Assembly (NCBI GenBank): GCA_013215945.1
Contig: JABSOM010000001.1
Span: 1 to 64,000 of the forward strand
Source: Campylobacteraceae bacterium
GTDB lineage: Bacteria; Campylobacterota; Campylobacteria; Campylobacterales; Arcobacteraceae
Length of the DNA: 64,000 nt
Direction: 5' to 3'
Under the pieces are notes generated by a model, which made no database searches, was not told the origin of the DNA, and saw only the letters and a program-made list of their open reading frames with translations. Positions 1 through 938 of this stretch are shown one piece after another. A program made the position numbers and the translations under genes. Position 1 is the first letter of the stretch. Every line of letters begins with the position of its first letter.

Positions 1-382
1 CATATAGTGATAATAAAGAGTACAACAAAGCTATAGAATCCTATGAAAAAGCAATAAAAATAAATCCAGAAGATTCAGGGGCATATAATAATCTAGGAAT
101 TACATATAGTGATAATAAAGAGTACAACAAAGCTATAGAATCCTATGAAAAAGCAATAAAAATAAATCCAGAAGATTCAGGGGCATATAATAATCTAGGA
201 ATTACATATAGTGATAATAAAGAGTACAACAAAGCTATAGAATCCTATGAAAAAGCAATAAAAATAAATCCAGAAGATTCAGGGGCATATAATAATCTAG
301 GAATTACATATAGTGATAATAAAGAGTACAACAAAGCTATAGAATCCTATGAAAAAGCAATAAAAATAAATCCAGAAGATTC
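1..382 (+). repeat. 102-bp tandem repeat, three exact copies plus a partial fourth
   Basis: The period is exactly 102 bp (34 codons). Units begin at 1, 103, 205 and 307. The first three are identical base for base, and the fourth matches up to about 382, where GGGGCA is replaced by AATGCA. The array continues beyond the left edge of the window. It encodes TPR units, so whole-unit gain or loss keeps the reading frame. Confidence 0.95.
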
Positions 383-707
383 AAATGCATATATAAATCT
401 ATTTGAATTAGAATTAATTGTAGGAAAATCAAAAAATCAAAAACTTCATAAAAACTATATTTCGCATATAAGAAAAAGTAATGAATCCTTATTCCAATAT
501 GATATGTTAAATATTTTAAGAAATATAGCAGAAGATAAAAATGTTGATATAAAAAAATTATTGATTAAGTATAATAATGAAACTTTGGAAGATTGGTGTT
601 TTGAGAATCTAGATTCTTGGAAATTAAAACAAAAAGAAACTGTAAAAAATAAACTTAATCTTGCTATAAATGAATTAAAATTAAAATTAAAAAAAACTAA
701 CAACTAA
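1..707 (+). CDS. Tetratricopeptide repeat protein, 3' part only
   Basis: The open frame (codon phase begins at base 3) runs in from outside the window and ends at TAA, giving at least 234 C-terminal residues. The N-terminal part is a TPR array. Each 34-residue unit has the usual TPR spacing (GxxY...YxxAIxxYEKAIxxNPxx). The first three units are identical at the DNA level, and a fourth is identical for about 76 bp before diverging. A Lys/Asn-rich, probably helical tail of about 105 residues follows, with no domain I recognise. TPR arrays are protein-binding scaffolds and the partner here is unknown. The exact repeats suggest recent expansion, so repeat number may vary between strains or be collapsed in assemblies. 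Confidence 0.85.
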   Translation, partial: YSDNKEYNKAIESYEKAIKINPEDSGAYNNLGITYSDNKEYNKAIESYEKAIKINPEDSGAYNNLGITYSDNKEYNKAIESYEKAIKINPEDSGAYNNLGITYSDNKEYNKAIESYEKAIKINPEDSNAYINLFELELIVGKSKNQKLHKNYISHIRKSNESLFQYDMLNILRNIAEDKNVDIKKLLIKYNNETLEDWCFENLDSWKLKQKETVKNKLNLAINELKLKLKKTNN

Positions 708-793: not shown

Positions 794-938
794 CAAAATT
801 GTCGTAGTGCTGACAATTTTGGTCAAGTTCAAGGCGGAAGTTAAAATATGAGAGGAGCATACACGAAGTATGTGACGAACAGATTTTAACTTTTAACGCA
901 GGAATTGGGCAAAAGTGGCAGTACTACGACAACTTTTG
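794..938. repeat. Imperfect palindromic intergenic element (about 145 bp)
   Basis: The outer arms 794-821 and 910-938 pair with each other (GTCGTAGT at 801-808 with ACTACGAC at 923-930, and CAAAA.TTG with CAA.TTTTG). The left arm also folds alone as a perfect 10-bp hairpin (794-803/812-821). Inside are a 10-bp stem AAGTTAAAAT/ATTTTAACTT (838-847/883-892) and a central hairpin CATAC-ACGAA-GTATG (858-872). Such nested symmetry is typical of REP/MITE-like elements. The right end overlaps the 3' end of mtnN and provides its last codons and stop. Confidence 0.7.

Follow-up and report, generated by a model that had tools for sequence, protein, structure and literature searches.

The palindrome at positions 794 to 938 of the window (the whole 64,000-nucleotide stretch of Campylobacteraceae bacterium DNA analysed here) is one copy of a dispersed repeat, with conservation of structure and of short sequence motifs over about 110 nt. 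We infer, with somewhat more than even confidence, both that the element moves as a non-autonomous hairpin and that it has been domesticated as a gene-end structure.

The palindrome and the 3' end of mtnN

The nested 145-bp palindrome of the original prediction was confirmed. Its fold is far more stable than that of shuffled sequence (-61.3 kcal/mol versus -30.1 +/- 3.3 kcal/mol, z = -9.4, 0 of 200 shuffles equally good). Arm pairing and fold energy place the element, to which no strand was assigned, at 794 to 938 as predicted, although the fold reaches slightly further, to about 786-945. The outer arms (795-826 and 905-936, 32 nt, plus strand) are 81% complementary. Between them, the inner stem (838-850 on the 5' side and 880-892 on the 3' side, plus strand) is 92% complementary, and its sequence varies among copies while pairing is preserved. 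The conserved part, matched by the covariance models R1 and R2, spans 812 to 921 of the plus strand in the core orientation, and this is the only R2 match in the window (93.9 bits). It contains, all on the plus strand, a 5' block AAGTTCAAGGCG (825-836), a tip AGGAGC-ATAC-acgaa-GTAT-GTGAC (853-876) almost the same as that of ERIC, and a 3' block AACGCAGGAATT (895-906); the conserved core of the repeat family reads TCAAGGC..GGAGCNTAC..GTANGTGA..AACGCAGAAATT. No match to the element was obtained from Rfam, or from the plasmid and phage collections by BLAST.

The host gene mtnN is an open reading frame on the minus strand (924-1616, 230 aa) whose protein matches PNP_UDP_1 (phosphorylase superfamily). 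The gene-side arm of the palindrome contains its stop codon (924-926) and final codons, and the latter recur as an inverted near-copy in the far-side arm (795-826), which makes mtnN a strong case of the arm match described below. Among the 22 Arcobacteraceae whose mtnN 3' ends were inspected, the element is present in only two, the window's genome and its relative G001, so it is not ordinary mtnN coding sequence common to all relatives. The protein ends in IVQKLS* (230 aa) in these two genomes and in ILEKLQK* (231 aa) in element-free congeners. It had been proposed that the element altered the end of mtnN and supplied its stop codon, which the differing ends make plausible. However, the K-L codons within the arm are ordinary conserved mtnN sequence, so at most the stop and the one or two codons before it can be attributed to the element.

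Copies in Arcobacteraceae

BLAST search of the same genome revealed three diverged relatives of the mtnN element, and R1 was built from these four copies. With this model, 16 strong copies and one interrupted copy were identified in the window's genome, and copies were found in 31 of 60 genomes of relatives (0-40 per genome). The repeat is thus neither single-copy nor without homologues. One copy in this genome (L037, G000:C2:207286-207434) has an insertion of about 40 nt in the tip-side stem, and the orthologous copy in G001 (L173) is without it. Pairing has been retained through sequence change: 92.4% of cells are paired compared with 70% in shuffles, two-sided changes occur in 29 of 34 pairs, and sliding the partner by one column abolishes the signal.

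The position of the copies relative to genes is highly regular. Of 75 Arcobacteraceae copies, 72 have the end of the AACGCAGAAATT arm at -20 to +25 nt (median 8) relative to the stop codon of a gene that reads toward the element, compared with 4 of 75 for the mirror arm and 14% for random intergenic points. The recognisable host genes, named by eye from the sequence, look like housekeeping genes (fabI, guaB, lepA, ubiE and others). Two copies in other Campylobacterota (L061 and L065) lie at what appear by eye to be tRNA 3' ends. With about 17 copies in this genome and docking at stop codons across the family's Arcobacteraceae members, the expectation of a mobile-looking palindromic repeat tied to gene ends was borne out.

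The outer arms are specific to each copy. Flanks beyond the modelled part pair with -13.1 kcal/mol, compared with -6.8 kcal/mol when they are swapped among copies, and the pairing of the outer arm with the stop and final codons of its own host gene is likewise stronger (-7.0 versus -5.0 kcal/mol). In some copies, A- and T-runs pair within the arm itself.

Retention at fabI and exchange between gene ends

Retention is seen at fabI: in 17 of 29 genomes, spanning many genera, the element directly abuts the gene end; in G021 it is displaced and in G006 it is degenerate. The fabI copies are 70% identical across genomes, while copies within one genome are 57-61% identical. The nearest neighbour of a fabI copy is another fabI copy in 15 of 16 cases, and compensatory change is strong within this lineage. 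No canonical terminator was found beside the 17 fabI copies, whereas one is present in several genomes that lack the element; at fabI, G002 and G003, both congeners, have only a short hairpin, with an ordinary terminator downstream. In many Arcobacteraceae (L209-L237), the spacer after fabI also has an AT-rich near-palindrome of the AATTTTGAATTT..AAATTTAAAATT type upstream of the following gene, apparently lysA; this near-palindrome may be a regulatory site.

Nearly all copies are common to the window's genome and G001. In these two species, guaB and a second locus bear each other's arm types, and homology between the two genomes often stops at the side of the element away from the gene. Taken with the inheritance at fabI, these observations indicate that copies appear to have been both retained and exchanged. 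The swap is not a simple translocation, because the flanks do not follow the arm types. Because of the swap, an origin of the arms solely by insertion into a terminator loop that was already in place was also rejected. No filled and empty sites differing by a clean target duplication came to light in Arcobacteraceae.

A wider family that includes ERIC

A search with the core pattern obtained 64 stretches in Campylobacterota, Bacteroidota, Clostridia and Gammaproteobacteria. As these were selected on the motif, the independent evidence is the covariation of the stems across all 64 stretches of the four groups, together with the second model R2. R2 matched at least 82 of 298 Campylobacterota, 54 of 395 Bacteroidota and 135 of 369 Gammaproteobacteria genomes (all lower bounds, since few candidates were scored per genome). 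In single genomes it identified 132 copies (Clostridiaceae M8S5), 121 (Fulvivirga imtechensis) and 63 (a Rikenellaceae genome). Among 2.9 million viral contigs only eight core-pattern stretches were found, three of the four inspected being classical ERICs, and carriage by phages was rejected on this count. In two Alistipes MAGs (L111 and L112), three cores stand in tandem almost back to back, at spacings of about 122 and 142 bp.

The copies are of two types. The gene-end type, with copy-specific arms and one orientation at the stop codon, occurs in Arcobacteraceae, Alistipes, several Gammaproteobacteria and two M8S5 copies. The MITE type has constant ends. In M8S5, such copies are flanked by direct repeats of 17-37 nt at 17 of 18 copies, mostly a whole terminator hairpin, and they stand in both orientations relative to genes, whereas docked copies have one. 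Whole-terminator direct repeats likewise flank MITE-type copies in an Anaerovorax MAG, and 5-bp duplications were found at 11 of 13 scorable Fulvivirga copies. Because the gene-end type and MITE types with different ends share the core, one core travels in unrelated packages, partly MITEs with unrelated ends. MITE-type copies from a gammaproteobacterium (L417, genome G1067) and from Bacteroidota (L369-L396) have nearly identical ends (GGGCACCTCTAAAAA..TTTTTAGAGGTGCCC), a likeness that points to a mobiliser in common or to movement from one phylum to another.

For the repeat family as a whole there is good support for mobility, which is likely for the Arcobacteraceae branch as well. The element itself is multi-copy, non-coding and palindromic, with no transposase inside, as MITEs are; shared terminal repeats with target duplications are present in the relatives from Clostridia and Fulvivirga, and none were seen in the Arcobacteraceae branch. 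Of the original "REP/MITE-type" assignment, the MITE-type repeat at the mtnN end stands, but the REP part does not (no REP-sized unit, and PF01797 does not track the copies).

ERIC has been known since about 1990. R2, built without enterobacterial sequences, gave five matches at genome scale in an E. coli chromosome (best E 1.2e-4) and aligned at full length to two known ERICs with three blocks in register. ERIC (IRU, RU-1; 127 bp) and the present element are both intergenic repeats forming one long hairpin, with AAGGCG, AGGAGCNTAC..GTANGTGAC and AACGCA in the same order, and the element has the ERIC-like tip AGGAGCTTAC..GTAAGTGACT between its AAGGCG and AACGCA blocks. In ERIC, however, the outer arms are constant, the termini are TA and no mobiliser has been demonstrated (PMC2229807), whereas the arms here are copy-specific and docking at stop codons is in one orientation. 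Instead of a constant 127-bp unit with conserved terminal repeats, arms differ between copies, and no TA-flanked unit was recognised; the element is therefore an ERIC relative, not an ERIC. ERIC has been reported from Enterobacteriaceae and Vibrionaceae only (PMC10969869), a stem-loop survey listing it in E. coli, Y. pestis and V. cholerae (PMC2267715). From the sequence comparisons, it seems to form a single branch of a far broader family, and the only described branch that we could find. No description of the wider family was found in the open-access papers searched; subscription papers were mostly outside the scope of the search, so novelty is unproven. A family spanning Campylobacterota, Bacteroidota, Clostridia and Gammaproteobacteria would allow many independent comparisons for ERIC, and stop-codon docking and terminator duplications make the movement and retention of the repeat directly testable. 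A 4.8-Mb PLSDB "plasmid" record (NZ_OL790696.1, L018) resembles an E. coli chromosome.

Folding strand and terminator features

In the core orientation, G-T mispairs far outnumber A-C mispairs (118 versus 13; 40 versus 9 in the inner stem alone). Folding constraint thus seems to act on the strand antisense to the host gene; the evidence is moderate, because the copies are related, the cells are non-independent, the model favours G-T, and the inner stem of the fabI copies alone has no wobble bias (G-T 5 versus A-C 4). A U-tract follows the closing pair in 8 of 69 copies, without enrichment, and no terminator-like site was called at mtnN. The hairpin itself is stable, but the lack of a U-tract in most copies speaks against an ordinary intrinsic terminator. 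The proposed role at gene ends thus draws on docking, on retention and on the lack of a separate canonical terminator beside the fabI copies. Against it stand the scarcity of U-tracts and the strand bias, the latter seemingly at odds with a simple mRNA hairpin.

Possible mechanisms and alternative explanations

For a domesticated mobile hairpin, we propose that an enzyme not encoded by the element moves it in trans, with a preference for hairpins at gene ends or terminators. The flanking arm could then come to match the gene end through template switching at the palindrome; such growth of the arm, or growth by fold-back, would explain the copy-specific match to coding sequence. The docked hairpin would replace the ordinary terminator, giving its gene a transcript-end or intercistronic structure, and some copies may be retained because they serve in this way. 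IS1182-family elements target terminator hairpins (PMC4923244), and they were rejected as mobiliser here, despite this precedent, because IS1182 is absent from the window's genome. Insertion sequences of this kind (IS1272/TnSha1, IS1182 family) insert at terminator hairpins, as the Clostridial MITE-type copies do, but differ in encoding a transposase, deleting part of the hairpin and making no target duplication (PMC4923244). In the G024 genome, IS1182-like transposase matches, some full and some broken, number in the dozens and Y1 transposase matches number 17, but there is no copy of the element.

The same terminator-targeting precedent (PMC4923244), with MITE-type relatives that insert at terminators and duplicate them, fits a purely selfish MITE, whose position at stop codons would merely reflect insertion targeting of terminators or gene ends and whose copies would be roleless and decaying. 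We hold this to be improbable, as the fabI copies are kept across many genera with compensatory changes and the docked copies keep one orientation where the M8S5 MITEs take both. Less probable still is a structured RNA, either a 3'UTR regulatory element or an opposite-strand RNA. The conserved motifs beyond the variable stems and the strong covariation fit it, and ERIC influences mRNA stability in Yersinia (PMC2229807, PMC10969869); against this, the wobble fits the strand antisense to the gene, where few copies would be transcribed as the neighbouring gene usually points away, MITE-type copies bear the same core in both orientations, and Rfam holds no match. About as doubtful as the selfish MITE is a broader, joint reading: the core would be a portable module of ancient origin, a DNA hairpin spread over at least four phyla and active as a folded single strand, namely the template strand of the capped gene, and would have been captured by unrelated MITEs and exchanged by an enzyme between gene ends. 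If this is true, bacteria have mobile gene-end units, and ERIC is one captured form.

Integron attC sites also have copy-specific palindromic arms and conserved unpaired bases, lie just after an ORF and fold in one strand, and the element resembles them in these respects. A single-strand DNA recombination site of this kind, at which a recombinase would cut and join the folded template strand and so shuffle gene ends, would suit the fixed position and orientation after the stop codon, the folding of the template strand with copy-specific arms, the swapped arm types and the synteny breaks at the element. It is nevertheless very unlikely: attC has R boxes and cassette arrays, whereas no attC-type R boxes were recognised by eye and the copies are scattered at housekeeping genes without cassette arrays, and synteny breaks at gene ends have many causes. 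Mobilisation as a REP element by a Y1 (RAYT) transposase has the least credit of all and is largely refuted. REP and REPIN are likewise small dispersed palindromes near gene ends, and the window's genome has Y1 domains, but their size and motifs are different and PF01797 (Y1_Tnp) does not follow copy number: the copy-rich genomes G011, G019 and G028 and the Alistipes/Rikenellaceae genomes G064, G065 and G071 are without a match, while G006, G024 and G026 have the domain and no copies.

Apart from the element, the contig was found to start inside near-identical 102-bp repeats encoding TPR units (window positions 1-420), and this repeat probably broke the assembly at the contig start.
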